A stretch of 64,000 nucleotides of DNA from Watersipora subatra (lineage: Eukaryota; Bryozoa; Gymnolaemata; Cheilostomatida; Watersiporidae). The stretch is from positions 26,346,558-26,410,557 of the forward strand of contig NC_088714.1 of assembly GCF_963576615.1 (NCBI RefSeq), given 5' to 3'. Position 1 is the stretch's first letter. Each line of letters opens with the position of its first letter. Positions 28,901 through 58,540 of this stretch are shown here, piece by piece. The translations under genes and the position numbers were made by a program. The notes beneath the pieces were generated by a model, which saw only the letters and a list, made by a program, of their open reading frames with translations, made no database searches and was not told where the DNA came from.

Positions 28901-29210
28901 GTGATCTGCTATCATATATAATCCACAACCATAGACAGTCTTAGTCATCTTAAGAACACCGCAAGAGAGAAAGATAAGAATTTAATGAAATATATTTCAT
29001 TAAATCATCAAATTTCATCATGTTGGTGTGAGCATCTACATTCACTACATATGTGCATTCTCGTGTGTTTTGGTGTGAATCAAAATTCTGTCATGAAAGG
29101 CAGCGTGATTTATTTGATCGATATATTGTAATTCAAAACTCTAAAATATTTACAAAGTGTATGTAGTTGAAAACAAGTCAATGTGTATCAGTGTTGGGAG
29201 AATAATGCCC
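28901..29210. other. Spacer before the receptor array
   Basis: AT-rich sequence with no gene seen. Similarity to the tandem units begins at about 29210 (tcagcactgaatattatctg region, compare 40370 and 58090). Confidence 0.4.
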
Positions 29211-29807
29211 ATTTTAGTTCTTGTCAGCACTGAATATTATCTGATTATGAAACAATAGATAATCAGAGAGAATCTCAGTACTCAAAACTTGCAAAGATCA
29301 GACTTCCCAAGAGCATCCTGCTTTACTAGTCAACTACTGCATTGGCTCAACACAGGATTGTTCTAAAATTTTTAATCTTTCGGTTAGAATTTAGCGGAAC
29401 AGTTGAGGGTCTACAGAAATCAATTGAATGTCAGACAGACATAAATAGGAGCCTTTGGCCAGCCAAAATCACGCAATATAGCATTGCCAGCCACATGAAC
29501 CTGAACATATGGGTGTATTGCTTGACCAGTGATATCCACTCTCCATTGTTCAGAGATTATGTACTGAGCAGATCAAAGAACTGAGTGAGAGACAAATCCA
29601 ATCACTAAGTGACATTTCTACTCACCCCACCACATCTCCTTCTCCGTACATATTCTCTCTATTGTTAAGTCTATTGTTATGTTCTATGGAATTAAATGAC
29701 TCACGATCATAAATTGTAACTTTCTTCAAATCATATTTGCCGAACGCTCAATCTCTCCAGCAATTGGTTAATACCACTTTTACTCAATCTCTGCAGCTCC
29801 GCAAAGC

Positions 29808-29815
29808 TATAAAAG
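29808..29815 (+). promoter_or_regulatory. TATA box, receptor gene 1
   Basis: TATAAAAG lies 76 bp before the start codon, with an initiator-like tccatacc about 15 bp further on. The box is present at the same place in units 2 and 3. Confidence 0.65.
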
Positions 29816-29883
29816 TAAAACTCGGTCCATACCAACTTTAGAACGATACTCACGTACTACCTCTCTATACATTCCGTTTCACT

Positions 29884-32800
29884 ATGGCTGATTCCGATCT
29901 TGTTTGTAAAGTGTGTGGTGACCGCGCCACAGGTATTCACTATGGAGTGCGCAGCTGTCATGGTTGTAGGGCCTTCTTTAAGAGAAGTGTTCGGAGTGAG
30001 ACACCATATGTTTGCAAGGTCAGTTATTATTTATTTAATTAAATTTTTGCTTTTTATTCTCAAAATCAATGCATCAGTCAAGCCATTGCCAAAGGGCAGA
30101 TTTCAATGTAATGGCAATCGTTTCAAATTTTTCTGTGAGAGTTTCAATTCTGAGTCAAATACATTTTTGAAGCCTGCTACCATCTTTTAATTTTTAATCT
30201 CTAAATTCAGTTTTACCCTATCACTCCATATATTCCACTCCTAAAACTTCTCACATCTTTGCATATATTTCGTTTGTTTGGGGTGAAAGTTTACACAGAT
30301 TATGGCACGATATGAAATTACAAAGTTGGAAGTTTGGCTATGCATTGATTTTAAATTGACTGACATTTTTTACTGTTTGAAGTGAGCAACTATATGTTTG
30401 CAAGTTAATACTTCTGTAACTCAACTTTTCACTTTTAACAACTATGCGGCAGTATAACTGTGGCCAAAGGGTGGATTGGAATTCAATTGCGCTTCTTTTC
30501 AACTTTTTTTATCGGTGTTTCAATTCGAACTCAAATTCAGTTTTAAAGCATGCTACCATTTTTCTCTTTTACCAAAATTTAACTCCAGTTTCTGCCCATC
30601 ACTCTTAAAATTCTCACATATCTCCATATATTTAACGTGCCTGGGGTGACAGCCTACACAGATTATAGCACAATGTAAAAGTTGAATGTTGGAGGTTTAA
30701 ATTAGAGTTCATCTTCTGATATCTTTACTGTGGATCATGACTAATGTTGTTCAGTCATCTTTGCTATGGCTTATTGTTTTATCTTCCCAGCAAGTGACCA
30801 ATAACACCGAGATCTTTAACTTCGGTTGTTTCTCAACTATATTGGAAGTTTGACAGAAATTAGTGAAAAAATGAGCTAAAAGCATTGTGTATTTGTCGCC
30901 TGTGCAAGTAATACTCTACATATATTCAAAAAGTTTGTATGTTAAGTTCTTAGCAAACAATCTGCATTACAAAATGCTGTAAAGTTTTTTTAAAGATATT
31001 GAAACAAATTTCAAGATGATCTTGGCATTCCTCCAAGGGTATAGCATTTGATAATTTACCAACATAAAATAGTTAGTGATATAAATTACATGATCATCAA
31101 AATATTTGAACTAATGAATAGAAGTAAATAAAATATTGGTCATGAAGATATATTTATAAAATTGGATGGCCTTAACTTTTACAGGCTTGATGAAAAATGT
31201 TACAGCTATCTTACTAGTGAGTAATTCTATGTTTTAGACAACTTTGAGTAAAGTACGCTTGATACGGAAAACTGTTTAGTAATATTTTATATTAGTATAA
31301 CTTAGCTCATATAGACAAACAAACTATTTTTTAGGGAACGAGGAACTGCGTGGTTGACATGGCCAGGAGAAACCTGTGCAAATATTGCCGATTTGAAAAA
31401 TGTAAAAGTTTAAATATGAATCAGGAAGGTGAGTTGTTCCTTTGATATAACATTTAGGGTTAAAAACTGTCAGTGGTGTAGCATGTACTGAGAGGGTCAT
31501 CTGCTCAGTCATGCTAATTTTTAACTGTTTGTAGAGCTTATTAGGCTCCGTTGACAGAATATTGCATTTAGTTGCTAAATGTTCTGTTATTGGCTGCATT
31601 TGTTTATCATTTTTCTAACTGTGTATAAACTGTTTTTACAGCTGTTAGACCTGCCAGACAAGATTCTTCAGAGCAAACTAGTCACTCTTCCAGCTCTGAA
31701 GGCCAAATTTCACAACTGTCAAGTTCGAACAACTCCGAAAACTCGACATTCTGGATGAGGTAAGATTAGATTATTTATAGATGGACTTAGTTGGAATCTC
31801 TGGCAGGCTTGAAAAAACGTTCAGAGGGAGTATGTGATGAGTTGTGTTTATACAGAGTGTACAAGTTTGTCTGTAGAGTGATGAGTCTGTATAAAGGAGA
31901 GAAAAGCATGTGAGAGATGATAATATACACACGGATGGTTTTTGTCTGACTCTGGGTAGAGATTGATAGAGCTATGCAGAAAGAGATGAGACAATCAATG
32001 AATTTGAAGGCATATATCTGTTTGTTTGTAGCCTCTTACATGCAAACATCAGCTGGATCAAACAGATACCAGCTATAAACACCCTGAGCTCTAGAGACAA
32101 AGTGATTCTGGTGGAGAGATCATGGTGTCCAATTATGACCATAGCTGTGGCGCAGATGTCTCTCTCTTTTGACGTCGGTGAGTACATAGAAATGTTGAGT
32201 GAAGTGTAAGCTGGTTGCTCAAACACCTTGCATTCTCAAGGAGGGCGAAGTTATAGAAGGTTACTCGGTGTTGCAGAGCATTGCGTTTTGTTCAGATTTG
32301 TTAGTATAATACTACTCGCTGTAGATATCATCATGAACAGCTACACACCCTTGGACGAGAATGACAGGAGGGCTGTATTATCAGAGCTGAGAAGAATGAG
32401 CCAATGCGTGAACTCCTTAAGGGAACTCAGTCTTGGTTTACACGGATATGCTGCTATAAAATCTCTATGTCTATTTACATCAGGTACGTTAGACAAAAGT
32501 TATTAAGTTTTCCAACGAGTTGTTTAAGGAGAAGATAATTAGGAAAAGCAACTATGTGAAGTGAGGCATTCAATGGATTCAATAGGAACATAAAATAATT
32601 CAAGAAAAACCTTTGTGGCATGTAGCGCATCTAGACAGTTTTCATGAAGTTTCAAATTGAAAATCAGTTAAATAATTGATATTTGTTTGTAAACAAAAAC
32701 ATCCATTGGTGAACTATTTTCAGAAAACAATATTTAAGGAGTGGATCACCATTGTTCAGTTGTTACGCATTGTTTGCTAATAGTTTCTATGAGAATTTAC

Positions 32801-33074
32801 AAAAGAACCTCCTTAAGTTCCATGCAAGTTTATGCTGCTTCTTCTAATAGGTACAGCAGAGCTTGAAGGACACCAAATGATCGCCAACCTTACTCATATG
32901 GCCAGAGAAATGGTGTTAGAAAACATCGACCAGCTTACAGCTAATCGTTGCCTGGAACTACTTCCTAATATCCAGTCCGTTGCTCCGGAATCGATTGAAC
33001 GACTCTTACTCAGTAACATCGATGCAGCAAAAACCGCCATTTCAGAGACATTCCTGGCAGCTCAAGAAGAGTGA
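29884..33074 (+). CDS. NR2E-like nuclear receptor, copy 1 (291 aa)
   Basis: Exons: 29884-30018, 31335-31428, 31642-31759, 32032-32177, 32325-32483, 32851-33074; GT-AG introns; 876 nt join in frame. The DNA-binding domain starts at residue 8: Cys8, 11, 25, 28 form finger 1 and Cys44, 50, 60, 63 finger 2, followed by CRFEKC and MNQEAV, as in NR2E (PNR/TLX) receptors. The P-box is CHGCRA instead of the usual CEGCKG or CDGC-type. A Ser/Gln/Asn hinge follows (77-115). The ligand domain has the signature WIKQIPAINTLSSRDKVIL (124-142) and ERSW, and ends with an AF-2-like helix ISETFLAA. It has almost no A/B domain and a short ligand domain missing recognisable helices 1-2. Expected nuclear transcription factor; ligand unknown. 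NR2E assignment is from motif resemblance only. Confidence 0.85.
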
Positions 33075-33266
33075 CTGCCACAGCCAGTGTAATAACATAG
33101 GCTCCAGGCCATCTACAACAGCCACCAAATTCTTATGCTATCTTGAGCTATAAATATTCTTCTACTTTCACATAACAATTCCGAAACATATCTGTATTAT
33201 TTTCCCATCTGTGGTTGTCAAGGACTATATTATTTAAGTCCTACTTCTAAGTGACTATAAAGAACA

Positions 33267-33272
33267 AATAAA
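33267..33272 (+). terminator. Polyadenylation signal, receptor gene 1
   Basis: AATAAA about 190 bp after the stop codon, conserved at the same place in unit 2 (44541). Confidence 0.6.
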
Positions 33273-33299
33273 TTTATACTATTGAATATGAATTAGACT

Positions 33300-34510
33300 T
33301 ATATATTCACATATTGGTGTAACTGTGACTACCCACAGTGATGCTGCTATTCCAGCAGAAGTCAAACAGCAGATATTACCAAAGACTGGCAAACTTCTTT
33401 TGATTGAGCACTGGCCATTAACACTATAAATATAATATTAAAACTTAGCAACTTTACTAATGAGCAGTGATTTTATTCAACTTGTGAATTTGATACAAAT
33501 ACACTTACATTACAAAACTGCAGACCTGCTGAACAGACTAGGATTGTACCATCAAGCATGTATTACTATAATTTTAATATAACTACAATTGGCACCAATT
33601 AAGACATCGTCCATATTGATAGGACTTGAACAAAGTAATGCCTATAATAATAATCATGAGTCATAGCGGTGTGCTGGCCAATGAGAGATCACCTACCAAA
33701 CTGCAAGTGGAATATTTCATAAGAAAACTGATTTAAGTTGAATCACTACTTGAGCAGACTTCCATCTTCCCAGATAATAAAAATGATTGTTCATTTTAGT
33801 TATGCTATTACAAAAAACTTACGTTACTTAACATTAATAAACACCTAGCCTGAGGACTTCAGCAGCTTTTCTACTAAAAGGATGTCAACTCTGCAAACAA
33901 TAATAATTTCAGTTTCCCACTCATCATTGTGAACTGAGGTCTGATAGCTTTTGCCCCTTTCTCTCATCATATTTTAGATATTCTACAATAGTTTTGATGG
34001 AAAGCGGTTAGATTTAAGACTATAATTATCTCGTATGTCTTAATTCATTTCATTATGGAATTATCTCACCTTACCCATAATCATCTATACACAGATTAGA
34101 GACAGATGACTAATTCGAGTTGAACAATCAGCTAAATGTATCTTGTGATTGCTTTTCAAGCTTCGTATAAATTATGTGCCTGTCAGACCTACATCACTCA
34201 TATCTTACTGCTACATAACACATTTGTAACACTGGTCCTTTCTGTTTAGGAATGGAAAACATTTATGATAGCAATTGTGTTGTACAAACTACTAAAATAC
34301 TGCGATGTATGTCTATTGATGAAAATAATAAAATAATGCAAACTAAGTAGTCTTCACACAACTTGTATTTCATACACATGTTCAGTGATTTGAATTTTGA
34401 AAGATTGCCTTTGGATTGGTTGAGGCCAGCTAATCATTTGGGCAAAATTGCAGGGCAAAATATGTTGGTAACTTAAAAAACTTAATAGATTTTGACTGGC
34501 TGTAGAGAGT
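33300..34510. other. Unit 1 downstream non-coding sequence
   Basis: Matches 44570-45778 of unit 2 almost throughout. No gene is recognised and the short frames differ between units, which argues against coding function. Confidence 0.5.
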
Positions 34511-36478
34511 AAGTGCCGGTTAAAAAAAGAAGTTAATGACAAAAACAAATACTGGCATTTAACCAATTATAAATTCCTTGTCTAGTTCCAATAAGAACAC
34601 GAGGAAAGGAGAATTATTTCGACAAATCAATTAATCCTTAGTAGCACTTTGCATGGGCATTGGGTAATCACAAGCACAAACTGGAAAAAAAGCTTTAAAA
34701 TTAAATGTCTGCATTTAAAAATATTCGAAGCTCAAGCGTGCTCCAGCAACGCTTGAGCCTCGAAGGGTGCCAAATATAAAACGGACCAGGAGGGCTCGAC
34801 TATCATGAAAAGACCACATACCAACTGACGAGGAGTTAATGGAGTTCCCTTGCCAAATGAATCCAGCTGTTAAGCTCGACGAAATGGGAAAGGCAACTCC
34901 CCAGGCCGACGCAGAAAATGAAAACTTGCACGAGGGTTCGAACTCCGAACTTCCTGCAACACACCCCCCAGAGAAAAACTGGAGAGGAGATAAACGTCTC
35001 TCTCCTAAAAAGACCCGGTGAATTAGCTACGGACATGGACTCCGAACACCTAGCGATGTCCAACAGGCCTTAGAAAACCCGTAACTACTACAGAAGAGCC
35101 AAACCACTGTCCATCCCATACTCGACAAAGGCCGGAACAAGAAATGGGACTTGAGCTCCAGGAGGACTGAATGACAGCAATGGAAACCAATCCTGCACGA
35201 CCTTAAAATATAGCTGTATACAAGGATAAGCCAGCCTCAACTTCGGCCCCCGCATCCCCGGTGCTCAGCCTACATGCTGGAGGAAGTTTCTCCAAAGAAG
35301 CCATCTCTTCGAGGCCCAGCCCTGGCACTCCTTATACAAATAGTGTACAATCAGCAAAAAATGGGGCGATTACTAATGACACTCCACCTAGACATTCCTA
35401 CACGGTCAGGACAGTGCAATTCCTGGCAGAAGAGACTACGGAACAAGCCACAGCAGCACTTAGAAGGCACCCTGAATGTTGGAAACTTTGCGAGTTTACC
35501 TCCAGTGCCAGACAGGGTACACCCCATGGACTGCAACATTTTGCTATTCATGTCTGCCCCTGCCGCTATCAGCACGTATCGAAAGACCAACTTATGCTAC
35601 ATCAGAAGCATTGACCGGTGGAACAGGCAGACCACGTGATATATCTAGTGGACCAACCACGATGGGTACAGTTCATGCGAAACATGGCGCAGGACGCTAC
35701 TGCCATGATACCATGCATACCATCTTTAACAACTAGCAAGAGGATACGGAGGCCCAGCTATAACCAGAGCCGCTTGCCTAGAAAAAGACAAGCTACAGAC
35801 CAGACGACCTAGGAGCCTAGCCTCGACCGCCTGACCACGCCGCTAGGACAGTCACCATACAGCCTCTAACTACCCACGCCGTATCCAGACCATGCAGCGA
35901 CAGCCACAGGAAAAAAGGTGACAGGGTGGAGAGGCGGCCCGTAGACACAGGTCAAGGACACACCATCTGCTGACAATAAGCAATTGATTAGTCGAGAAAT
36001 CACCCGTTTTGAACATTATGCTGAGCAGTTTGAGACATGGGCCAGGCCGGTTACTCCACCTTTTTGTTTTAATTACGCATAGTCTCTAATGGAGGGGAGT
36101 GTGGGGTGGACGCCGGGCCATGACTTTCTGTTAACGCATTACTCTTATAACTATTGCTATATATCAAGCATGTTGTGTTTGCCCTTTTCATTATATATCA
36201 TTAATATATTAATATCATATATAATATTATATATCATATCATTAATAACTTGCAAAATCCTTTACAGTAGAAAGAAAGTGCTGATTAAAAAAGAACGTTT
36301 ATGACAAAAACAAATACTGGCATTCAGCAGTTATAAATTCCTTGGCCAGTTCCAAAAGGAACACAAGGAAAGGAGACTTATTTCAAAAAGTCAAATAACC
36401 CTTAGTAGCACTTTGCATGCGCATTGGGTGATCACAAGCAAAAACTGAAAAAAATGGCTTCAGAATTTAAAAATATTC
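34511..36478. mobile_element. GC-richer insertion flanked by about 210-bp direct repeats
   Basis: 34511-34726 and 36275-36478 are direct copies (shared: acaaaaacaaatactggcat, ctttgcatg-gcattgggt). Between them is a GC-richer block with a hairpin at 34730-34739/34749-34758 and several overlapping open frames (34839-35021, 35261-35614, 35274-35639, 35618-35812) that look like one frame-broken coding region; no known protein is recognised. A purine-rich tggaggggagtgtgggg at 36087-36104 resembles an LTR-element polypurine tract. Unit 2 keeps the same left junction but has lost most of the block (45993-46310). It may be a retroelement; the class is unproven. Confidence 0.5.
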
Positions 36479-39400
36479 AGAGTTTGATTTGAGTAAAATG
36501 GAATTTCTGTTTTGTCAAGCGACTAAGGATGAATTAACAACTAAGCAAATATTAGCATTCAGCGACCCATAAACCCTTCAAACAGTTCGTAAGGGATTAC
36601 CAGGAAAAGAGAAAAGCAGAGATCATTGTTCAACTATAGGTCTCAGATGTAAATGGTCAACACTGAGTAAATTGAACAAATACAAGTCTAACCTCATCAC
36701 TCTTTGGACATTTCTACTCACTCCATCTCAATCCTCGTTACATATAACCCCTATTGTTGAGTTTATTGTGAATGTTACAGAAAATTAATTGGTTCATAAC
36801 AAGATATATCTAATTAGTGTAACCTTATTACACAGTGATTCCAGCTTGTCTCCAGCTTGTCCCGACTTCCAATGAATACATCTCCTGGTAGCCTAGTCAA
36901 CTATAATTGGGATAAGATTTGTAAAGTGTACAGATTTGCTCAGAAAATGTTCAAAGTAAACCAACACAAGTCTTGCAAAGCGAGTTAAATATTATTTGCA
37001 TGTCTACACATTCCATTCTTTAGTTGTTTTACAGCTACTGTGATTGTGTAACTGTCATCAGAGTTCTCCCTGATGGAAGAAGCGCTAACTTCGTGTAAAT
37101 GAGAATACATGCAAATATATTATACTATATTTTAAGTATATATGGTTTTCTGAATATAGATAATACCAATTTATCATTTAAACATTTTAAAGCTGGTGTT
37201 CTGTTATGAATAGAATGCGTTAGCTTCTTTATGTTGATCAAATTGGTATTAAATTGCCAAAGTGAACTATAGTATGAGATACCAGATAAAAGCATGACTA
37301 AAAATCTACAAAATAAATATTAAATTGTTAATTGTATCGATTTCACAATAATATCAAAGATGGTCAATATTGCTTCACAGGATAATTAATCATTATGAAG
37401 GCTCATGTCAAGTGCAATGAGCAGGCAACTCCTTCATTGGAATGACTATAGACCCAACCTTATGACTAGTTGATATTATTATTCACTGCTGTTTAAGCAA
37501 TTTTCAACTTGTGTGATAAAAGTGAGTAAAGCTGGTAGACTGAGAGAAAATGAAAAAACGAAATAAGATTAACAAAACATGGATATAAATTTCTAATGAG
37601 TTCTGAGTTGTTATTAATCATTTAAAGAAATAATAGTTATAGCTCTACAACACCAATGGTGTTTATAGATAATTTGAGTCACGTAACCGTGTTCATTATG
37701 TCTTTGAGTGAAATCTGAAAGACTGTTATTCAACCTGAAAGATGAACCCTAACATTCAAAAACAAAATTATCTGGAGAAACAAACGGCATGCAGACTTTG
37801 AAATTAATGCAGAAAAAACCCTTAACAAGCTTCATCCGAGATGACTGAGTAGATATATTCGGTGAAGTATAATTTTCCCCTAATGGTGTTAACTTGGTGA
37901 AGACAAGAATGCACAGACATGTAGTACATGTATACACTTTCTTTCTATGAATGGAATGTGTATCTTCTTCTCACTGAATAAACTTGTGACTGAGTAGATA
38001 TACTCAGTGATAAAAAAGTGAAACAAACCATGCATCGTTATTTTTGACAGACGACCCGGTGCTTGAGTATAACTGGGAACCCATTTTAACATTGCACATG
38101 CTTAAATTTTACTGGTTTCTTGAAGTAAATCAAGTATTTTGTAAAAGAATAACAATTAGTAACTACACCTCTCAAGCAATCAGCTAATGTATATAATACA
38201 GGTAAGATAAGACAACTAGTAAACCCATTTTTTGCGATCATTAACAAAAGGCATGCACTTTAATATATTGAGGTAGCTGAAATTTACACTATAGATGCAA
38301 GCAAAAATCTATAGTTTTGTAGTTATGAAAAAAGCAAACTAGAAAACCATAATAATAAACTATTTTCTATTAAAAGCACATGCAATTAATCATATCTGTT
38401 ATTTATCGGTTTGTTGTGAGCATGTAGATTTGAGCATATAAAAACATTGTATTGTATAAAAAACAAAGCTCAAAGAAAATTCAAAAAAATATTTGCAGTT
38501 GCTACGGAATTATTGAAAACTTTGTAACTGGCTGTAAATGAGAAGTCATTTTTGTAGCCTTGAAATCAGCAAAACTAAACAATTTTATTATGGAAATGGG
38601 AAACGCTAAAGCCTGGATTCTCGAAATACTCTAAACCTTGATAGCTCTACAGGTTCAAAACTTCAACCTTAAAATTTTTACAGCTGTTTTTCTATAAAAC
38701 TTGATGGAAAATTTGATTGATTGGTTAAATATTACACCCTATTATTATAAAAATAGGGTTACAAAACAACGGGTTTTATCCTTTCTGAATAAAGGTCATG
38801 TGCGATTTGTAGCTCTGGCAGCTAGAAACATTGCGAGACCAAAATCTTTTAACAAGCATCTCGCAGGGGAAAATAACAGAAATATTATGGTAAATCATAT
38901 TTCATTAAATTTGTATGTCATCAGGTTATATGAAAACCTTTTGACTTCTCTCATTTTCTATTCAATCTTCCTACAACTTGGTTTCTAATAATAAACTTTG
39001 TTTCACGACCAACCACTGTTGTTCATCATCTACCTACCATATCTACATAGATCAACAATTCATATCCGACCCAGAATGTTATTTCAATCATTCTTGAATT
39101 TTCACAAAGTTTTGGACTAGCAGACCAGAACGACCTCACTCGAGCATCGACATACAGAGCCAGCAAGTTTGCAGCTCACTCTGCTGATCAAGTTCTGCTG
39201 CTTGAGTGGAACAGCAAGGCCATATTTGACATTGGTGTAAAAAAAGTTGCTTCACCATAAACCACGTAAAAACAAACTTTAGAGCCATCCAGAATCGGGT
39301 GAAACTAGTTGGAAAACAAAAAACTGACAGCAAAATGAGAAACTTCACACGCCACAGTATTGAAATTTTTTTACAGACACAATGAAGGTGAGCTTGTGAC

Positions 39401-40359
39401 AGAATATGGAACAGTCTACACCCAATTTTTGCGTGATTCCACAATTACAGCAGTGATTAAGTCTATCGAATACGGAAGGGTCCACACCCAACTATTGCAT
39501 CATACCACCAATTTACACCGTTGCTAAAGCCTTGGAACTCAAACATATTAGGATGGTCATGCCATCAATTTAATACGATCGAATAACATTTGCAAAGAGT
39601 TTGAACTGGCATCCTGATGTTCAATAACAAATGCCAGGTTTCATATGTATGCAAGTTCTTAAATGAGTGGTTAAACCCTAGTATGCAAGAACAGTTCTAA
39701 ATGTTTCAAAGATCCAGTGCAAATTTTACTTTAGCCAACAAAATTAAAAAAACTTTCTCACCACTTGATAATACGAAGGCTTACTTACGTCGAAAAACTG
39801 TCGTAAATGTCATATTTAATATTTAATCATGTGATACTTTTATTATTCATGTTCGCTAGTTGGTTATGATGCGTGAATTTGAATAAATACGTCTCTGCAA
39901 ATTTTTTACATTTATATATTCACAAACTTCTCTAGTTTGTAATATTTCAACCTTTTTAGAGTTGATAGGGAAAGGTTACTCTTAGGCAGCACAGCTCAAT
40001 AAACTCATCTCAATATAGAAGTTTGCTGAAAGCCAAAATTCAGCCTGTATGTTGGCAGGTTAGAAGAAATGATTTATTATAATATCTTATACAGTACACA
40101 CTGTATAAGATATTATAATAAAAAAATGCCACATGGCATTTTTAATATACATGTATATCTGACAATTGTCTTATGTTAAAATATTTACACTGCAGCATTA
40201 CAAATAACTCCAAAAACTTGGTAATGCCATAACTTGGTATGTCAGGACTCTAAAAATAATTATTTAACTTTTGTGATGTTGTTTTAAAAAGTTTCATGAA
40301 GTGACATTTTCTTGTCACTATCTTATAGCAATGTAGGAATAGTGCCTAGTTTTATTTCC
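36479..40359. other. Unit 1 tail, non-coding
   Basis: Continues the duplicated unit; parts align with 46440-50700 and with 53290-58080. A stretch at 39110-39500 recurs, diverged, at 55490-55760. Frames of about 95-102 codons (38701-38988 plus, 39136-39444 minus) are not kept in the other units. No known gene. Confidence 0.45.
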
Positions 40360-40969
40360 TGTCAGCTGTGAGTTTTGTTAGCAAATGATACGGTGAATCT
40401 CTAGCCAGTATCTAATATCCAAGACTTGTCAATAGTCAGGCTTTTCAGGAGTATTCTCATTCATCGATTAGCTACTGCTGTGGCTCAACAAAAGATCGTT
40501 CTAGAATTTTAAATCTTACTGTTAGCATTCAACAAAACCATTCGACGATCAACAGCAAATCAACAGAATAGTAGACACACGTACGAACGAGCCTTTGGCT
40601 AGCTAGGATCATGTGGTTCCATCTATTTTTCAAGATATAGCATTGCCAGCCACAAGAACCTGAACATATGGATGTATTGCTTGACCAGTGATATACGCTC
40701 TCCATTGTTCAGAGATTATGTACTGAGCAGATCAAAGAACTGAGTGAGAGACAAATCCAATCACTCAAGTGACATTTCTACTCACCCCACCACATCTCTT
40801 TCTCCGTACATATTCTCTCTATTGTTAAGTCTATTGTTATGTTCTATGGAATTAAATGACTCACGATCATAAATTGTAACTTTCTTCAAATCATATTTGC
40901 CGAACGCTGAATCTCTCCAGCAATTGGTTAATACCACTTTTACTCACAATCACTGCAGCTCCGCGAAGC

Positions 40970-40977
40970 TATAAAAG
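40970..40977 (+). promoter_or_regulatory. TATA box, receptor gene 2
   Basis: TATAAAAG 80 bp before the start codon, in the same context as in unit 1 (tccataccaactttagaa follows). Confidence 0.65.
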
Positions 40978-41049
40978 TAAAACTCGGTCCATACCAACTT
41001 TAGAAGGATATCAACTCACGTACTACCTCTCTATACATTCCGTTGAACT

Positions 41050-44000: not shown

Positions 44001-44346
44001 ATTTAAGGAGTGCATCGCCATTGTTAAGTTTTTACGCATTGTTTGCTAATCGTTTCTATGACAACTTTCAAAAGAACCGCCTTAAGTTCCATGCAAGTTT
44101 ATGCTGCTTCTTCTTATAGGTACAGCAGAGCTTGAAGGAAACCAATCAATCACCAACCTTATTCAAATGGCCAGAGAAATGGTGTTAGAAAACATCGACC
44201 AGTTTCCAGCTAATCGTTGCCTGGAACTACTTCCAAATATCCAGTCCGTTGCTCCGGAACCGATTGAACGACTTTTACTTACTAACATTGATGCAGCAAA
44301 AACCGCCATTTCAGAGACATTCCTGGCAGCTCAAGAAGGAGAGTGA
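41050..44346 (+). CDS. NR2E-like nuclear receptor, copy 2 (292 aa)
   Basis: Exons: 41050-41184, 42453-42546, 42761-42878, 43162-43307, 43593-43751, 44120-44346; all GT-AG; 879 nt in frame. The domain plan matches copy 1: eight zinc-binding cysteines, P-box CHGCRA, hinge, ligand-domain signature WIKQIPAINALSSRDKVIL and terminal ISETFLAA. The first exon is identical to copy 1 in all 135 bases. I count 17 replacements plus one added residue: one in exon 2 (S70R), three in the hinge exon, two in exon 4, two in exon 5 and nine in exon 6 (for example HQMIANLTH to NQSITNLIQ). Both copies keep full open frames and splice sites, so both are probably expressed proteins. The single-exon frame from 41050 to 41274 runs into intron 1 and is not the product. 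Confidence 0.85.
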
Positions 44347-44540
44347 TTGCCACAGCCAGTGTAATAACACATAGGCTTGAGGCCATCTACAACAGCCACC
44401 AAATTCTTGTACGATCCTGAGCTATAACTATTTTTCTACTTTCACATAACAATTCCGAAACATATCTGTATTATTTTCCCATCTGTGGTTGTCAAGGACT
44501 ATATTATTTAAGTCCTACTTTTATGTGACTATAAAGAAGA

Positions 44541-44546
44541 AATAAA
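44541..44546 (+). terminator. Polyadenylation signal, receptor gene 2
   Basis: AATAAA about 195 bp after the stop codon, same position as in unit 1. Confidence 0.6.
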
Positions 44547-44569
44547 TTTATACTATTGGTCATGAATTA

Positions 44570-47060: not shown

Positions 47061-47065
47061 TATAC

Positions 47066-48424
47066 TCATATCTTTAATTGAACGCCTCCTCTATTTGACT
47101 GCTACAATTGGAGAAGGAATGAAAAATAGAGAGCCACCCTTTAATTGAATGACACCTCCATTTGACCACCACTTTCACATTCTTGGATCTTTGCGAACCA
47201 AATAATAGAAAGTGATCAGTAGAAAAGTTTCCACAAAATCGTATTAATAATGAATAGTTTGCATCAATAACAATTAATTCTCTCGTTGTTTAACTTCAAA
47301 GCTTTTTTTCTTTTTATTAAAACTTTGAAAGCAACACCATAGAAATAATTAATAACTGTGTCAAGCTAAGACTAGTTTCTTGTTTAACATGGTCTTTGAA
47401 GTACTGTATATATAAAACGGTTTACATTTACGATGGTATATGAACGACTAGTTTTAGGCTAAAAGTTGTGCTTTATGCTCATATGACTAAAAGCTTATCA
47501 TTACATGTGTTTGTGCAAAATGCAACGCGTAAAAGTTTTTCTCTGCTAATAAAATTGTTGTGATGCTAATGTCGATTAGTTCAGCAGTGCAGAAAAAAAG
47601 TTGAGGTCAGAAAACATTGTGGAAAGTATTGAACAACTAGAAGATGTTCACTCCATCGAAAGCTCCGATCAAAATGCAACTGGCCGAGCAATTGATGCAA
47701 ATTTTTTTGTTTAAAAAACTTTAATTTTTGTTTTCGCACGTATCATAAAAGTGGTTCATTTATGTCACCTGTTCATGAATATATATTTGTAGCATTTGAT
47801 AGATTATTGTTATATAACTTATAAACTTACAGATTTATAGCATATTATTTGATAGCATCATTGCGATTATCTGATTTTACAATGGATCGACGATTGTAAC
47901 TCCTCTTCCATTGTATGTAAAAAGTTAATTTTGGCTGCCAACTAGCAAACATATTAATGAATGCAATGAGCTTTTACGCAATACTGTTAAATATGGAAAT
48001 AGAATAAATGTATGTTTTCAAGTTTAGAATGAAATAAAAAGGAAAAGCACCAACAAATTGCAAAGCAGGACGCAAGCTATAATACTATTGCAGGTTAATT
48101 GCAAGCAATAGATATCAACTTAAAGAGATATTTCTTGGCTTTTCACTGCAAATTTTTGTTAAGAGATTTTTGACAAGTTGGTGGTAAGTTAGCAGATTTG
48201 TTGCATCCAAAAGGGTTAATGTCACTCTATTGTAAAAAGAGGGCAAAATATAAGAGAGAATCGCTTTGACTGTAAAAGAGATAAATTTATTTTCCCAAAA
48301 TTCTGATGAGGTGTTTAAAAAATACAACACCAGCCTCTATTTGAACGCCACCTTTATTTGACCTCCACTATAGAGAAAGGGTTGAACAATAGAACCCCAT
48401 GGTGTTCAAATAGAGGTTTTACAG
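47066..48424. mobile_element. TA-flanked inverted-repeat element in unit 2
   Basis: The right end (complement ctgtaaaacctctatttgaa) is followed by TA, and the left part has ttaattgaacgcctcctcta. Absent from unit 1, where flanking sequence is continuous (near 37100), so it inserted after the duplication. Related to 14664-15056 and 18563-19373. The left terminus is eroded. No transposase. Confidence 0.7.
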
Positions 48425-48555
48425 TATACTATGTTGTTATTTTCCTCTAAGTATAGATAATATCATTTTATCATTGAACATTTAAAAGTAGACTTTTTTT
48501 TATGAATAGAATGCATATCTTCCTCATGCTGATTAGTGTTCAATCTCTACCAAAG

Positions 48556-49075
48556 CTAATATATATATACATGTAAATATTAATGTTTGTCTGTTTGTCT
48601 GCATGTCCAGTTATAGCGATAAAGTTTGAAGAATTAAAAACTCTTTACTCTATGGATTTGAACTCAGAACCTCCAGTTCTGCGGACAGGCATTTATCCAG
48701 TACACTATACTGTCAAACTGGCTGAACTATGTAATAAATTGGGCAAATACTTATTACATATACCAATATTTCATGGTTTCAGGCTTAACCCTGCAGCTAG
48801 TTCAAAGCCATGCCAGAAAGAAACTGCGTGCCCATACATCAAGAAAAATGCTTAAACTCACATGGCCAACAAGACTATTGCAATCGGTATAGGTGTATTG
48901 TAGGCACTGCAGTCGGTACAGTACGAGTTAGAGAAAAATAAACGCAGAACACAAGAATAAACAAAAGACTAGCATTTAGAAGTTACAATGGTAAATATTG
49001 TATATGTTGAGTAAAAATAAATTTTCCGTGCAAAAACTTTTTTATTACCCGTGCGATGCCGTGCATTCACCTAGT
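48556..49075 (-). mobile_element. SINE-like repeat S5, reverse orientation
   Basis: Read on the minus strand it starts actaggtgaatgcacggcat, has a tRNA-like block (ggaggttctgagttcaaatcc split near 48650-48680), then cgctataactggacatgcag, a gacaaacagacaaac tail and an AT run. Inserted in unit 2 only. Confidence 0.65.
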
Positions 49076-49767
49076 TATCCCAATAAATACTGGATAAAAC
49101 TACAGTGACTGAAAGTCTACAAAATCAAGACTAAATTATTAATTGTATTAATAATATTATTAATTGTATTATTAATTATTATCTTACAACATTATCAACA
49201 CATGATGCATAGTGCTCAACTGGGTAACTATTCACTATGGAGGCCTTACCCTTACTCGCAGCATCAACTGCAATGAGTAGGCAACTTCTTTATTAGAAAA
49301 ATTATAGACCTCTGGTTCAAATCACATAAGGGCCATTCTTGGTGTTGCTTGAAGGAAAGGTCATGAAAAGGCATCCAACTACTAAATCTGGTCGGGTCAT
49401 CGGTGACTAAACCGCCTCTCCCATCTGTGCATCAGTGTGGATAAGGAGGGTGGCTAGCAACCACCAATGTTGGACTAAAAACAAAACTTGACAAAGGGCG
49501 GAGGAGCTCTTCTGTGAGCCAACAACCAGCTAGCTAGAGATGGTGTACCAATAAAAACATCTAACAGAAGGCAATGGAAAACCATTGTTGAAACCTGCTA
49601 AGAAAAGCCATGGTTATAGGAAGTGGGGGAGAACCATGATCACCTATGGCCCTTACAGGACATGGTAAAATAGCATCTGATAGGCATAAGGTTAGGTCTA
49701 TCTTTTCCATTTTTTCACTCAGCTTAGCCTTAGTGTCATTGACCAACCATGAGAAGGCAGAAGTGGT

Positions 49768-50900: not shown

Positions 50901-50978
50901 TTAGACTCAGTCCATATAAACTTTAAAAGGATATAAACTCTAGTACCTTCTGGTACCTCTCTATACATTTATTGAACT

Positions 50979-53067
50979 ATGGCCAGTTCTGATCACATTT
51001 GTAAGGTGTGTGGTGACCGCACCACAGGTATCCATTATGGAGTGCGTGGCTGTTATAGTTGTAGGCCCTTCTTCAAGAGGAGTGTTCTGAGTGAGATACC
51101 ATATGTTTGTAACGGGAGTTTTAATTTCTTCAACTGAATTTCTGCTTTTTTTTAAAAACAATGCGTCAGTTTAACCTTAGCCCAAAAGCAGATTTGGATT
51201 CAACTGCAGTTGTTTTCAATTTTTTCTGTAGTGTGTTAAAAATCATTGTAACTTTTTTATAACTTAGTTTCAGTTTTAGCCCATCACTCTTAAAACTTCT
51301 CATATCTTTGCATATATTTTACTTGTTTGTGGTAAAATTCAACACAGATTATAGCGCAATGTGAAAGTAAAAAGTAGAAAGTTTAAACTACAGTTAATTT
51401 CCTGATATATTTATTGCGGACCATCATCATATAGTTTTTTGTTTTGGTTTTTTAGTGAGTGATCCATAACACAAACTTTTCAACTTTGAATTTTTCTGTC
51501 ATCGTATGTCTGGAACTAGTCAAATATAATTATTCAAATGTCATTTGAATAATGTAGCTTATATTATATAGCATATATTCACAGCCTTTGTTTGAACGTT
51601 AGGACATCACAATGTATTACACAAACAACTAAGCATGTATTTTAATTGTAAATTTGCTATATTTTGCTATAGAGCTTTTTAACATGCTTTTATGAAGCTA
51701 ATGCTTTTTTGCTATTAAAGCCAAACTGCTATCAAGCCTCTGATTATATAAGCGGGATATCTTTTTACGAATTCAGTGTGCACTCAGTTCAGCATACTAA
51801 TAGATACAAGTATCTGAGAGGTTACAACAGCCTTTATATTAAGTTCTTGCCAAAAAATCTGGGATTACAAAACACTACGAGGTATCTTTAAAAAACTTTG
51901 AAACAAACACTAGCTGATCTTGGCATTTCTCCAGAGCTACAATCTATCAATTAAAGTATCATTATTGTAACTTACATTTGTACTTGTTTATCTATAAGTG
52001 CTTAAAATATTTAGTGGTATAAATTACATCGAGGCAAAAATATTTGAATTAAATTATACAAGCCATTAAAATTTTAGTCATGAGGATTTTTTTACAAAAG
52101 CGGATGGCCATAACTCTTACAAGCTTGTTGAAAAATGTTACAACTGTCTTAGTGGTGATTAATTCTGTTTTAGACAACTTTGAGCAAAGTTCACTCTATA
52201 TAGACAAACAAACTATTTCTAGGGACCGAGGAACTGCATTGTGGACATGGCGAGGAGAAACCTGTGCAAATATTGCCGATTCGAAAAATGTAAACGTTTA
52301 AACATGAATCAGGAAGGTGAGTTGTTCCTTTGATATAACATTTAGGATTAAAAACTGTCAGTGGTGTAGCATGTACTGAGAGGGTCATCTGCGCAGTCAT
52401 GCTAATTTTCAACTGTTTGTAGAGCTTATTAGGCTCCGTTGACAGAATATTGCATTTAAGTGCTAAATGTTTTGTTATTGGCTGCAATTGTCTATCATTT
52501 TTTCTAACTGTGTATAAACTGTTTTTACAGCTGTCAGACCAGCCAGGCAAAATTCTTTGGAACAAACTAGTCATTCCTCCTGCTCTGAAGGCCAAAGTTC
52601 TCAACTGTCAAGTTCAATCACCAAACACTCGACATTCTGGATGAGGTAAGATTAGATTATTTATAGATGGACTTAGTTGGAATCTCTGGCAGGCTTGAAA
52701 AAGGTTCAGAGAAACTCTGTGATGAGTTGTGTTTATACAGAGTGTACAAGTTTGTCTGTAGAGTGATGAGTCTTTGTATAAAAGAGAGAAAAGCATATGA
52801 GAGATGATAATATACACACTGATGGTTTGTCTGACTATGGGTAGAGATTGATAGAGCTATGCAGAAAGAGATGAGACTAACAATGATTTTAAAGGCATGT
52901 CTATATTGGTCTCTATTTGCAGCCTCCTTAATGCAAACAACAACGGAATCAAAGATAAACCAGCTATAAACACCCTGAGCTATGCTGTTGTAATGCTGGT
53001 GAAGAGATTGTGGTGATCGATAATGATCATAGCTGTGGCGTAGATGTTTTTCTGCATCGATGTTGAG
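50979..53067 (+). pseudogene. NR2E-like receptor copy 3, pseudogene
   Basis: Exon-like blocks: 50979-51113, 52223-52316, 52531-52645 and about 52923-53067. Block 1 keeps the four finger-1 cysteines but has P-box CYSCRP, and the intron 1 donor gt has become gg (aacgggag), so translation would run into a stop after a few residues. Block 2 (finger 2) is intact. Block 3 lost one codon. Block 4 has lost the ligand-domain signature and carries in-frame stops (first after KRLW). Exons 5 and 6 are deleted. It diverged further from copies 1 and 2 than they did from each other. Confidence 0.85.
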
Positions 53068-53289
53068 TATGTGAAAATTATTAGTTGCGTGATATATGAC
53101 TACTGCAACTTAATTTGTTATATATGACTGAATATGTTTTAGTTTTTTTTTTTCTGAACTACTAAGTTTATTTTTTGCCTTCTTTCAAAGAAGTTGTGTC
53201 CTCATTGACTAGTTGCGCAGTATCAGCCTATCATCTAGAATATGTAGAGTGATGTGTAAGCTGGTTGCTCAAACATCCTTCATTCTGAA

Positions 53290-53924
53290 TATCAACATAA
53301 TTTGTGTAATCTTATTAAACAGTGATTCCAGCTTGTCCTGACTTCGTATGGATATATATATCTCCTGGTAGCCTAGTCGACTATAATTGGGATAAGATTT
53401 GTAAAGTGTAGAGATTTGCTCAGGAAATGTTCAAAGTAAACCAGCAGACGTCTGTAAGGGGAGATATATATTATTCGCATGTGTCCTTTCTAAACATTAC
53501 ATTTTTTGATCGTTTTTATAGCTACTGTAATTGTGTGACATCAAACTTTCCCCTGTTAACTTGTGTTAACTTTGTGAAGACAAGAATGCACACACAAGTA
53601 GTATATGTACATGTACATATTTTCTTCCTATGAATGCAATGCGTATCTTCTTTGCGCTGATTAAACTAGCATGATAGCAATTGCTAATTGATAAAAGCAT
53701 AATTACTAACATCTAGCAGTTAAATCTAGACTGTTAATTGTGAATCTTTTTACACATTACCAAAAGGTGTGAAGTATGGCTGAATTGGATAAGCGATTAC
53801 TCGCTATGAAAGCTTATGCATGGCTTGCATCATTTGCAATGAGCACAAACCTATACTATGACAAGCTGAAACTAGTTCCTTCCCTTCAGTAAGCCTTAAA
53901 ACTATTAATAATTCATAAAGGAGC
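53290..53924. other. Unit 3 tail, first part
   Basis: Matches 36815-37400 and 46775-47060/48430-49250. No gene seen. Confidence 0.4.
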
Positions 53925-54265
53925 AGATGGGGTTCGGTTCTTAGTTCACCCACTTATAATCAATAGATTGGGAGTTCTAGCCCAGCAAGGAGCATTGATG
54001 GTGCTAGCACGGGTGTATAAGTCCAAAAGTCTGTAGATGCAGCTCAGAAAAAAACCCAAAATGTGGTTTTCTCACAATGGTCTCAGACTACAGACAACCA
54101 TTGGGTTTTTATCATTGGTCAGCAATACTGCTGTTAGTAGGTAACTACTGCTTTAGCAATTCTCAACTAGAGGGAAACAGTTGAGAAAACTGGGTTCTGG
54201 GTCACAGAGCACCCGATCTTAACCTTCTCAGAAAGAAGTCATATGTTAGACTAGGAGAGACTGGT
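53925..54265 (+). mobile_element. tRNA-derived SINE-like repeat, unit 3 copy
   Basis: Aligned to 49768-50130 over its length: ggttcggttcttagttcacc head, gggagttctagccc B-box-like block, then gcagctcagaaaaaaaccca and ggtttttatcattggtcagc. Confidence 0.6.
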
Positions 54266-56219
54266 AAAAAGAAAATCTGACATATATCCAAAGACAAAAT
54301 TAGTTGGAGAAATAAACTGTACAGATTTTAAAGCTGAAAAAAAAACCTTAAAAAGCTTCAGCTAAATGGATAGCTCATGGATATAAGTGGGAACGCATTT
54401 CAGGATTACATATGATTGAATTTTACTGTTTCCTTCAAGTATATCTTGCATTTTAATTGTCTGTAGTAAACATTGCATTTCGTAAAAGGGTAGCTACACC
54501 TTTCGAGCAGTCCGCTGATGTATATGATACGGGTAAGATAAGACAACAAGTGATCAAAACCCATTACTGAATGACCATTAAGGGAAGATAGGGATTTCAA
54601 CACATTGAAGAGAACTGTAATCTGCACTACAGATGTAACAAGCAGAAATATAAGATGTTTTGTAGTAACAAAGATAAAAACAAAAGCAATAGCTAACACA
54701 ATTTCTTGCTAAAATCCCTAGGAATTAATCATGTCTACTATTTATTGGTTTGTCGTGAGCAACTAGATCTGAGCTTATGAAAACTATGCATTGTTTAAGA
54801 AACTGCTAGGCTCAATGAGTATAGAACAAATATTTACAGTTGTTACGGAACGGAATTGGTGAAACTTTGTAATTAGTTGTAAAAGATTTTTGACCTAAAG
54901 TCGAAAAAAAAAATTTTCAGTTGTGAAAATAGCAAAACAAAAAAAGAAAGAAACGTATATGTCTGTTTTTCATTATGCACCCACAATCACGATAATTGCT
55001 CGAAAGCTTAACATTCTAGGTAGGAGCATACAATTATTAACTTCAAAAAACCTGGATCCTCAATATTTGATACTATTAAACGATTCCTGTCTCAGAAATT
55101 TTGAAAGCTCAAAATTCAAATCTTAGGACTTTTATGGCTGCTTCGTTTTGGTGTCTGTTGGAAAGTCTGAAAGCATGATAAAATAATGCATGTGTAGAGT
55201 TGGAAAAAAAACAAGTACGGGGTTCTTCAACTCTATTCCTGTACATTTTATATCATTATACACATTTTATTATTATATATCATTGTATACATTATATATT
55301 ATCAAAATACTGAAAGTTTTCAACTAACGCCAAATAGAAAAAAGTAACAGAAATATGCTGTTTTTAGGTTGTAGGTTTTACTATTATTGTTTAGCTCTAC
55401 TAACAACTAGAAGAGAGCTGATGTCTAGTCAGTGATAGGATGGTAGTCGAACCCAGCATGTTGCCTACTTTTCTGACAGAATTGTGCTGCTATTGTAAAG
55501 CATCAAGACAATATCGAGGACGATCCCGAAGAGAAAAAAATATGACTTTTCACATAAAGAAGTAAAAAGAAACTCCTGAGCCATCCAGCATCTAGCTTGA
55601 GACCCAGGTTGATGAGCCAAAAACTGACAGCAATGCGAAGAACATTGTATGCTACAGTATTAAAGTATCTCTTAAATAACACAAAAAAAAGCTTATGGCA
55701 GAATACGTAAGGGTCCCCGCTCAACTTTAGCATAATACAATGAAGACTACTAATAATTGTGTCTCAATACATTGTTTCTCAATGCTATTTTGCTGACTCC
55801 TAACATTCTTGAAATAATCTTTATTTGAAGGAACCTATTAGAATCTCTTTATAATATATGATAGCATGTTAGTCAGCATTCATAACCCAATTGGATAATT
55901 TGTTTCTATACCTCAATTACCTTGAATATCTTCCCCAAAAGATGTGCTTCACATAGTGTGTTAGTAAAAATAGTATTTCACTGTCAGACAAACCTTTGAT
56001 ACATATTTTACACTCAGTGTAATCATACATGTATGTTGCAAGTGTCTGTCGGCAAGAGACTCCTCACTATACCATCTAGCAGATCAAAGGGGCGCGTAAT
56101 AGGAATCCTCAGTATCCGAGGATTCTTGCCGACATTAAGGCTGGAAGTGGCATGAGCACAGTTTCTGTTTCTCAATTCCTGCTTCCCAAACACCTCATCC
56201 CGTGGGAGCTTTTCAGCTG
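54266..56219. other. Unit 3 tail, second part
   Basis: Follows unit 1 from about 38060 onward with heavy divergence; 55490-55760 matches 39110-39500. No coding gene recognised. Confidence 0.4.
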
Positions 56220-57360
56220 CTGCACCATTGCAGGCTAAACCCTCCTTTGAGGATTGTCTCCTTAGGTCCATTGATTTTGACCTCTTGTGTAGTAGAGTGC
56301 CTTTAGCAGCTGATCCCAAATCACTCATCAATCGCCAACAGAGCTTCATTGACAGCGTACACGAGTTGCTCTTCCCATCAAAGATGACTCGTCTAAAGGG
56401 GACCAAGATTATCAGGCCTCGACCTGCCCTTAGTGGTTGAAAGGCGCACAAAGAGCTTTATAAGTCGGGGCTGCGTGACCTCGTGGCAGACTACAAGATC
56501 GTTTCTGACCATATAGTGTGTGGCGCGTATTCACAGGAGGAGGCCTTCATCCCTCTAAGCGCTGAGCTCTTCTGGAGAGATATCTTTCAGAAAGAGTCAG
56601 TGCCCAACAATGGGCAGCCAGTAAGATCTATTATGAGCTGCTAAAACCCATCTGTCAGGATGAGATTGCAAGTGTCCTTTTGAAGAAAGGAAAGCAATAC
56701 ACGGGTGTTGATGGTTACAGCTGGAAGGACCTGAAGAAGGTGCAAGTTTAGCTTTTGCTATCGGCTTTTAACCTGTGGTTGCTGAGTGGTCGGGTACCAT
56801 CTGGGTTATGTAAAGGCATCACTACACTCATACTTAGACTCATTGGCACATTCGATCCGGCGCAGTTTAGGCCGAATACAGTTACATCGGTGTTCGGCCG
56901 CCTCTACCATGGCATGCTTAGTGAGCGGTTCGCGGAGATGTCACCTTTTATTGAACGACAAAAAGGGTCAAGAAGAGTGATGGGCTCTACTTCAATTCTA
57001 AATTGCTTCAGAATGTCATCGCTGAGGCAAAATTCAAGTATAACAATTTGCGTATCGCATTCATAGACATCAGTAAAGCGTTCAACAGTGTCTCCCATAA
57101 TTCTTTGTGGGTTGGGTGTCATCACTTAAAGGTACCTGGACATCTGGTATAGTACCTCAGATGCTACTACACTGCTAGCTCAACCAGACTGAAGCTCCCA
57201 GGTAGGGCAAGCAGCGATATCAGGGCATGTAGAGTCATTAAGCAGGGGCATCCGCTGTCTACCCACCTGTTTAATGCTGTGATCGAGATGTGCACTGCCA
57301 AGCTAGATGACAAGATCAATTTTCAGTTTTGCAGCAGTAGTCGCCAAATCGGAAATTGAT
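56220..57360 (+). pseudogene. R2-like non-LTR retrotransposon relic
   Basis: Translation with frame changes gives FNLWLLSGRVPSGLCKGITT, then AQFRPNTVTSVFGRLYHGML, then LRIAFIDISKAFNSVSHNSL and KQGHPLSTHLFNAVIEMCTA, the RT motif order of R2-type LINEs. The motif A aspartate is present (FIDISKAF), but the sequence breaks off before the FADD catalytic box. Stops and shifts occur throughout. It is GC-richer than the unit around it and is absent from units 1 and 2. Confidence 0.8.
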
Positions 57361-58080
57361 GCACAGTCGCCATGCAGTTTTTTTTCAAACAAGGTTTTTA
57401 TTAATGTTTACTGAAGTCTTCTTTTTTGTTATTACTAGTCAAGTTTTTTCATATGAATTTCACTTGAGCCAAAAAAAAGAATAATTTTGTTCTCAACATA
57501 TGAAAGTCTGCTTAAAAATGCATTCTATTGTAAACATTACATTTGATATAAAGAATAGAGCTTTTGATATTCAATATTTTGTTTGAATTTTGAATAAATA
57601 CATCAATGCAAGCTCTTTTGCATTTATTGATCTATATACTTCTGAGATTGTAAATTTTTAGCCGTTCTATAATTGGTCATATAAAATTAAACTTATACAA
57701 GACTGATCTCAATATTTTAGGATGTTGCCTATATGCAAAAAAATGTTGGCATTTTGACAGCCTGTTGGCATTTTAGATTAGGTGAAATGATTAACTATAT
57801 TTATTATATTATTATTTATCATATTACCCTACAGCGGGGCACTGCCCGCTATTGACGCTGATAATTGAATTGTTAAAAGATTCAGTCTACATGGTTTTTT
57901 CATAATGCACTGCTACAGAATTATAAGTAACTCCAACTCAACAACTCAAAAACTTATGTTTTTGGTATGCCACGATTCTAGAGAGTAGTTCAATAACATT
58001 TGTGATGTTTTAAAAAATTCTACGAAGTGATATTCTGTTGTTTCTGTTCCCTATATTGTGGTAATGCTGAAATATATAAT
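57361..58080. other. Unit 3 end, non-coding
   Basis: Resumes the unit tail (compare 39820-40360: ttgaataaatac, gttggcattttag region). Nothing else seen. Confidence 0.4.
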
Positions 58081-58540
58081 GACTAGTTTCGCACTCTGTC
58101 AGCAGTGAGTTTTTGTCTGCAAATGATACAGTGAATCTCCACACAGTACCTAAATCCAAAATCTGTCAATAATCAAATCTTTCAAGATCATCATTCTTTA
58201 TTCGTTAGCTACTCATATAGCTCAAAATAAGAATTTGCTAAAATTTCCAGACATACAATATGGATTAGGCAAAACCAATGAAGATTCACAGAAAAGCAAC
58301 TAGTTAAGTAAGAATGGAAGACAAAGATAAGAACCTTTTGCCAGCTACAATTGTATGATTCCTTCTATTTTACTTTAGCAAAAGTTAGCATTGTCAGTCA
58401 TAAAAACTTGAAAGAGGGGAGATCAGGAATATATGCTTTTTACGATTAAGAGATTATGTAATGAGGAGATGAAAGAAATGAGGGTAAAATAAAAGAAAAA
58501 TCCAATCAGTCATGTGAATCAAACAAAGCTTTTTGCTCTC
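58080..58540. repeat. Start of a fourth tandem unit, receptor lost
   Basis: The segment gtcagcagtgagtttttgtc onward matches the upstream part of units 1 and 2 (29210-29610, 40370-40770), including the ccagctacaattgtatgatt and gagattatgtaatgaggag blocks, with strong divergence. The match stops before the promoter and no receptor exon follows. Confidence 0.6.

Follow-up and report, generated by a model that had tools for sequence, protein, structure and literature searches.

Organization of the Locus

The subject of this analysis is a tandem array of nuclear receptor genes in the bryozoan Watersipora subatra, located in a stretch of 64,000 nucleotides of contig NC_088714.1 (positions 26,346,558 to 26,410,557 of the forward strand; assembly GCF_963576615.1), hereafter the window, whose numbering is used unless stated otherwise. 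An earlier note, made from the letters of the window alone, had described four unit starts with a common promoter and upstream sequence, two leading into intact genes, one into a pseudogene and one into no gene, and had regarded the array as young and NR2E-like. When the window was compared with itself by blastn (E cut-off 1e-10), as the note had proposed, three long direct-repeat units were found, and the sequence contains 0 N; the tandem array is thus real. The segment 29476-30739 recurs at 40635-41903 with 95.9% identity, 32192-35041 recurs at 43460-46304 with 92.3%, and 31306-32159 of unit 1 matches 52194-53047 of unit 3 with 88.9%; for 31300-32200 of unit 1 only three matching places were found. 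The element TATAAAAG, 76 bases upstream of the unit 1 ATG and presumably a TATA box, can be aligned in all three units. To this extent the common promoter and upstream sequence hold good; the supposed fourth start ends before the promoter and is considered below.

Units 1 and 2 each contain a gene of six exons with GT-AG splice sites and an intact frame (29884-33074, 291 amino acids, and 41050-44346, 292 amino acids; table 1). Pfam searches with a preliminary 311-amino acid model of unit 1 recovered zf-C4 (PF00105, E 5.4e-25) and Hormone_recep (PF00104, E 6.4e-8, 32.8 bits against a cut-off of 23.5), and the eight zinc cysteines are present in both genes as well as in U0, the intact relative described below. 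Judged from their sequence, both belong to the nuclear receptor superfamily, with two C4 zinc fingers and a ligand-binding domain. Between the two, nonsynonymous divergence (dN) is 0.027 and synonymous divergence (dS) 0.154, a ratio of 0.18 over 291 codons, in 274 of which the residue is unchanged; such values point to purifying selection on the coding sequence. The dS is uneven among exons: 0 in exon 1, whose 135 bases are identical, about 0.6 in exons 2 and 3, and 0.06-0.10 in exons 4-6. The exon-4 and exon-5 acceptors of unit 1 are settled because the U0 gene aligns there. An alternative exon-4 acceptor, 31970/31972, under which units 1 and 2 seemed frame-shifted against each other, was rejected in favor of 32032, with which the indels between the two units fall in intron 3; an upstream exon-5 acceptor at 32277 was likewise rejected, the U0 alignment beginning at 32325.

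Unit 3 is a pseudogene. The donor sites of exons 1 and 4 are gone, exon 4 has two stops and, as the note had claimed, exons 5 and 6 are missing, within an absent stretch that corresponds to ~32185 to 36810 of unit 1; in a genome-wide protein search, array matches beyond residue 167 occurred only in units 1 and 2. These lesions can be read directly, and the order in which they arose is a matter of interpretation. Compared pairwise with units 1 and 2, unit 3 exon 1 has a dN of 0.122 and a dS of 0.469 (ratio 0.26), which is consistent with protein-level selection for much of its history. With two intact genes and one pseudogene confirmed by the gene models, the note was right to see receptor birth and death at this locus.

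Table 1. Coordinates of the features of the array, its flanks and its insertions
Feature	Position	Strand	Basis or remark
Upstream flank of unit 1	29200-29475	+	33.3% apart from unit 2, 276 sites
Unit 1 block alike in unit 2 (~40635-47000)	29476-37055	+	Change points at both ends
TATAAAAG of unit 1, kept in units 2 and 3	29808-29815	+	Alignment
Unit 1 exon 1 (first zinc finger, P-box CHGCRA)	29884-30018	+	Gene model; U0 exon 1 laid out alike
Unit 1 exon 2 (second zinc finger)	31335-31428	+	94 bases, as in U0
Unit 1 exon 3 (hinge)	31642-31759	+	Gene model, U0 comparison
Unit 1 exon 4 (ligand-binding domain)	32032-32177	+	146 bases, as in U0
Unit 1 exon 5 (ligand-binding domain)	32325-32483	+	159 bases, as in U0
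Unit 1 exon 6, with stop	32851-33074	+	Gene model, U0 comparison
GC-rich block of unit 1, largely missing from unit 2	34740-36260		Composition; self-comparison
Unit 2 exon 1	41050-41184	+	Gene model
Unit 2 exon 2	42453-42546	+	Gene model
Unit 2 exon 3	42761-42878	+	Gene model
Unit 2 exon 4	43162-43307	+	Gene model
Unit 2 exon 5	43593-43751	+	Gene model
Unit 2 exon 6, with stop	44120-44346	+	Gene model
Insertion in unit 2	47065-48445		Unit 1 has 31 bases there
Second insertion in unit 2	48534-49086		Unit 1 has 40 bases there
Unit 3 pseudogene exon 1 (P-box CYSCRP; donor GG in place of GT)	50979-51113	+	Gene model, alignment
Unit 3 pseudogene exon 2, open	52223-52316	+	Gene model
Unit 3 pseudogene exon 3, open	52531-52645	+	Gene model
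Unit 3 pseudogene exon 4 (two in-frame stops, donor lost)	52923-53065	+	Gene model
Unit 3 downstream flank	53298-58517	+	Matches 36811-40772: seven pieces in order, one 81-base piece out of order
Insertion in unit 3 flank	56220-57360		Reverse transcriptase-like stretch at 56955-57149
Terminal upstream-flank copy ("fourth start"), without promoter or exon 1	57962-58517	+	Match to 40234-40772

An Intact Relative Outside the Array

The array is not the whole family. A search with the unit 1 protein revealed an intact gene on the opposite (minus) strand of the same contig, ~60 kb to the left of the array (C7:26306094-26315783), which we call U0. It encodes 299 amino acids in six exons of 144, 94, 130, 146, 159 and 227 bases, those of unit 1 measuring 135, 94, 118, 146, 159 and 224, and 123 of 283 residues (43%) are identical between the two proteins. 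A tree built from 16 DNA-binding domains (DBDs) of this genome places U0 together with units 1-3 in a single group (support 97/94). The genome searched comprises 783.7 Mb in 239 contigs and gave 64 exon matches to zf-C4; DBD pieces were read at many, not all, of these loci, and no further family member was recognized among them by sequence features. Another distant member may exist elsewhere in the genome. The three tandem units and their intact relative nearby make up a local receptor family that is real, apparently old and partly converted.

The Right End of the Array

The note's fourth start without a gene rests on genuine homology: 57962-58517 matches 40234-40772, 66.4% over 575 columns (E 1.8e-40). 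To regard it as a dead fourth unit whose gene has been lost would account for this likeness to the upstream flank; nonetheless, the stretch prolongs a series of matches to the downstream flank of unit 1, in which 53298-57675 contributes pieces that match 36811-39964 (six of them collinear, one of 81 bases out of order), and the downstream flank of unit 1 in turn runs into the upstream flank of unit 2. The counterpart at 40234-40772 also stops short of the promoter. Moreover, n units made by exchange between flank copies would be expected to leave n+1 flank copies, so no lost fourth gene is needed, and the unit 1 protein has no match listed at E up to 1 to the right of unit 3, in the window or beyond it on this stretch of the contig. 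A dead fourth unit is accordingly quite unlikely in our judgment. Most plausibly, 57962-58517 is the last part of the unit 3 flank, a terminal flank copy rather than the start of a decayed unit.

Divergence of the Flanks and Probable Gene Conversion

The downstream flanks differ by 21.0% between units 1 and 2 (752 aligned bases), 24.1% between units 1 and 3 (1481 aligned bases) and 22.7% between units 2 and 3 (384 aligned bases). Being drawn from alignable pieces only, these values are lower bounds; 1/8 of the pieces in the comparison of units 1 and 2, and 1/7 in that of units 1 and 3, are out of order. Upstream, units 1 and 2 are 33.3% apart as far as 29475 (276 sites) and 3.3% apart over 29476-30722. 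These per-unit estimates, which the note had called for, leave its description of the array as young unsupported, because the flanks are 21-33% apart while the bodies are alike. Units 1 and 2 are alike only within an internal block (29476-37055 of unit 1), mostly 3-7% apart and with an abrupt edge on each side. At 29476 divergence changes from 33.3% leftward to 6.6% rightward, with a log-likelihood gain of 79.3 compared with a maximum of 9.35 in 200 permutations; this edge abuts a gap in unit 1 that stands opposite 19 extra bases of unit 2. At 37055/37056 divergence rises from 6.6% to 21% over 62 far-side sites, and the diverged flank goes on beyond. Sharp edges within diverged homologous flank are what gene conversion would leave.

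The history that we consider likely begins with a small receptor of the NR2E/NR2F type, with a short ligand-binding domain and no long N-terminal domain, that would have been duplicated locally long ago. One copy would be the present U0, on the opposite strand ~60 kb off and with the P-box CDGCRG; another would have given rise to the array of three tandem units, with flanks that now differ by 20-30%, and the P-box of the array would have changed relative to that of U0. Later, an ectopic gene conversion (or a double exchange) would have re-homogenised ~7.6 kb of units 1 and 2, and unit 3, outside most of this exchange, would have lost splice sites and its last exons.

Several observations weigh against this history. 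The alike block is unevenly diverged, at 3.3, 15.8 (30723-31084) and 6.9%, and more than one conversion event is therefore likely; 7.6 kb is also long for a single conversion tract. The right edge, ~60 bases from the nearest large insertion, is defined by 62 far-side sites, and a link between block edge and indels is shown only on the left side. Finally, exons 2-3 of units 1 and 2 have 17 synonymous differences in 42.5 sites, whereas their introns have 31 in 448, an excess that a simple conversion tract does not predict.

The principal competing explanation is a young tandem duplication, in which a recent unequal crossing-over generated unit 2 from unit 1, unit 3 being an older copy. The bodies of units 1 and 2, 2-12.5% apart in 18 windows over 29500-34705, and their identical exon 1 (135 bases) are what it would lead one to expect. 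However, one unequal crossing-over should leave one internal junction, and here there are two edges, both within flank that is 21-33% diverged; in addition, the downstream flanks of units 1 and 2 are about as diverged from each other as either is from that of unit 3. We regard so recent an origin as unlikely. Far less probable still is an assembly artefact in which units 1 and 2 are two alleles set side by side, the outcome that the note had named as fatal to its proposal. The array is known from a single assembly, but flank divergences of 33% and 21% speak against allelism, as do the large insertions confined to unit 2, the third unit with its similar flank divergence, the absence of any N from the window, and a dS of 0.154 that would be very high for alleles. 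If gene conversion has indeed acted here, the locus carries a warning that the similarity of gene bodies alone misdates such arrays, and offers a test of the effect of conversion on transcription-factor duplicates.

Introns 2 and 3 Compared with Their Exons

A further anomaly concerns introns 2 and 3 (31429-31641 and 31760-32031 in unit 1, with homologues in units 2 and 3), which have accumulated fewer changes than the third codon positions of the neighboring exons. In the three lineages, changes at third positions of exons 2-3 compared with introns 2-3 number 5/69 vs 8/444, 10/69 vs 21/444 and 7/69 vs 12/444 (p = 0.02, 0.004 and 0.008), so that the exon third positions have changed 3-4 times as much as the introns. 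The introns 2-3 of unit 3 differ by 4-9%, compared with 16-39% in its exon 1, intron 1 and exon 4; over 31129-31992 unit 3 is 7.9% apart from unit 1, and the adjoining segments are 31% apart on the left and 24% on the right. Selective constraint on these introns and conversion in short tracts are both possible causes.

Under the first of these, introns 2-3 and the end of intron 1 would form a constrained non-coding element, and unit 3 would resemble the other units there by selection and not by conversion. The similar ratio in three lineages is what a difference in rate would yield. Nonetheless, when all exon sites are compared with the introns, the excess is clear for unit 3 only (p 0.019, vs 0.17 for unit 1 and 0.85 for unit 2), and the introns have no significant match in the 50 kb around U0. 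In 28000-60000 nothing reached the Rfam gathering threshold, and the five matches listed in 31300-32040 at E up to 5 all fell far below it. Intron 2 has a folding z score of -3.3 in unit 1 and of -0.9 and -1.6 in the others, with compensatory change in 0 of 65 pairs and hence no conserved fold; that of intron 3, computed in unit 1 only, is 0.35. An antisense gene over exons 2-3 was also rejected, the long open reading frame (ORF) there not being coding-like in units 2 and 3 (proportions of nonsynonymous and synonymous differences 0.103 and 0.095). We hold the constrained element to be a tentative suggestion, somewhat less probable than its negation.

Receptor Class and DNA Recognition

A profile merged from the three ligand-binding domains was run against PDB (205 sequences at E up to 0.01), and its three best matches were COUP-TF2 (2.2e-15), NR2E1 (2.5e-14) and NR2E3 (8.3e-14). 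Alone, the domain of U0 matched best COUP-TF2, NR2E3, an NR2F member and NR2E1, and that of unit 1 (preliminary model) NR2E1 first and ERR1 next. Counting against a plain NR2E label, the best PDB matches of the full unit 1 protein were HNF4-alpha and RXR-alpha, and those of the U0 DBD were RXR, USP and NR2C2, although few NR2E DBDs are known to be present in PDB. The grouping of U0 and units 1-3 beside two DBDs of this genome that we take, from their motif, to be NR2E-type has a support of 62/36, which also weakens the case, as does DBD position 22, which is Arg in U0 and units 1-3 and Ser or Ala in the known NR2E receptors according to an extract of PMC2225407. NR2E/NR2F-like is the best-supported label, on the strength of the ligand-binding-domain profile and the U0 P-box; the NR2E membership implied by the note falls short of proof.

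Among known receptors, NR2E1 and NR2E3 (TLX, PNR, FAX-1) thus resemble the present family in the ligand-binding domain, but COUP-TF2 is a slightly better match and position 22 differs; the D-box here has five residues, and is longer in the two DBDs presumed to be NR2E-type. The P-box of U0, CDGCRG, is the same as that reported, in an extract of PMC8363021, to be unique to the NHR236 group, insect NR2E6 included. This likeness in P-box comes with a ligand-binding domain that is NR2E/NR2F-like; units 1 and 2 (CHGCRA) and unit 3 (CYSCRP) differ from it, and so does the presence of four local copies. The C. elegans gene nhr-111, proposed as a duplicate of fax-1, is likewise an NR2E-type duplicate with a diverged DBD, but the excerpt of PMC3517510 describes no tandem array, conversion or common flank for it. 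The HNF4-derived set of nematodes and the NR1P receptors of the oyster, as extracts of PMC2749838, PMC4388693 and PMC4070562 and titles cited in them present them, are also single receptor types multiplied in one lineage; the family here differs in being small, confined to a single locus and possessed of a converted block.

At position 19 of the DBD, U0 has Asp, units 1 and 2 have His and unit 3 has Tyr; at position 23, units 1 and 2 have Ala and U0 has Gly. In two C. elegans NR2E receptors, an extract of PMC2225407 indicates, position 19 partly sets the choice of half-site in a context-dependent manner: Asp-19 to Asn switched the preference of NHR-67, and the reverse change in FAX-1 caused no switch, a result that tells against a simple effect here. 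Altered DNA recognition by the array proteins is plausible, and because His replaces Asp 19 and Ala replaces Gly 23, the unit 1 and 2 proteins probably differ from U0 in the DNA half-site that they recognize. The P-box strings "chgcraff" and "chgc" (with nuclear receptor and P-box) were not found in the literature text searched. More speculatively, and with low confidence, we propose that the array receptors acquired a new DNA-reading helix (His-19, Arg-22, Ala-23) and new targets after the split from U0, that conversion keeps the live copies alike, and that an intronic element around exons 2-3 has persisted even where the gene is dead. With its CDGCRG receptor, its converted pair of altered P-box and its pseudogene at short distances from one another, the family would provide a natural test of how nuclear receptors change DNA specificity.

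Extracts of two mollusc surveys (PMC4388693, PMC4070562) report four or five NR2E members each, so that three genes and a pseudogene of NR2E/NR2F-like type in one local family would be unusual. No converted NR2E array was described in the titles listed by two of our literature searches, 7 of 7 in one and 10 of 54 in the other. The locus is a good evolutionary case and not a new kind of system.

Insertions, Putative Mobile Blocks, and Surroundings

The unit-specific insertions of the note were found again in units 2 and 3 (table 1). The first of unit 2 (1.38 kb) begins ~60 bases past the right edge of the alike block, and 48052-48432 within it has an inverted relative at 14657-15033 (79%). In unit 3 the flank between the matches at 55738 and 57584 measures ~1.8 kb, compared with ~0.37 kb in unit 1; the reverse transcriptase-like stretch there matches RVT_1 with E 0.0019 and 18.4 bits, under the Pfam cut-off of 29.6. 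The loss from unit 2 of most of the 34.7-36.3 kb block, also claimed by the note, is confirmed, blastn showing that 35042-36355 of unit 1 is missing there. This GC-rich block is possibly a mobile element. Similar short peptides at 34730-34780 (APATLEPRRVPNIKRT) and 61715-61765 (APATIEPRRGPNTKRT) suggest that it and the 61-64 kb region may be related mobile elements; blastp with ORFs of at least 30 codons gave only one weak match (E 0.006).

A GRIP-domain gene (27317-27595, E 1.5e-17) is present to the left of the array. Farther left, an inverted-repeat pair at 11291-11636 and 11744-12086 (85%), with relatives at 21063-21451, resembles a foldback element, and 15452-15898 is a long simple-sequence array with several open frames (Cys/Val-rich or His/Thr-rich) and no gene. 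Elsewhere the genome has what we take, from their motifs, to be a RAR-like DBD and two HR96-like genes, an assortment that suggests a lophotrochozoan. Duplication seems to have affected several of its receptors: three DBD exons that are RXR-like by motif lie on chromosomes other than this one, as do two almost identical DBDs with the motif CESCKAFF, which are on two chromosomes.

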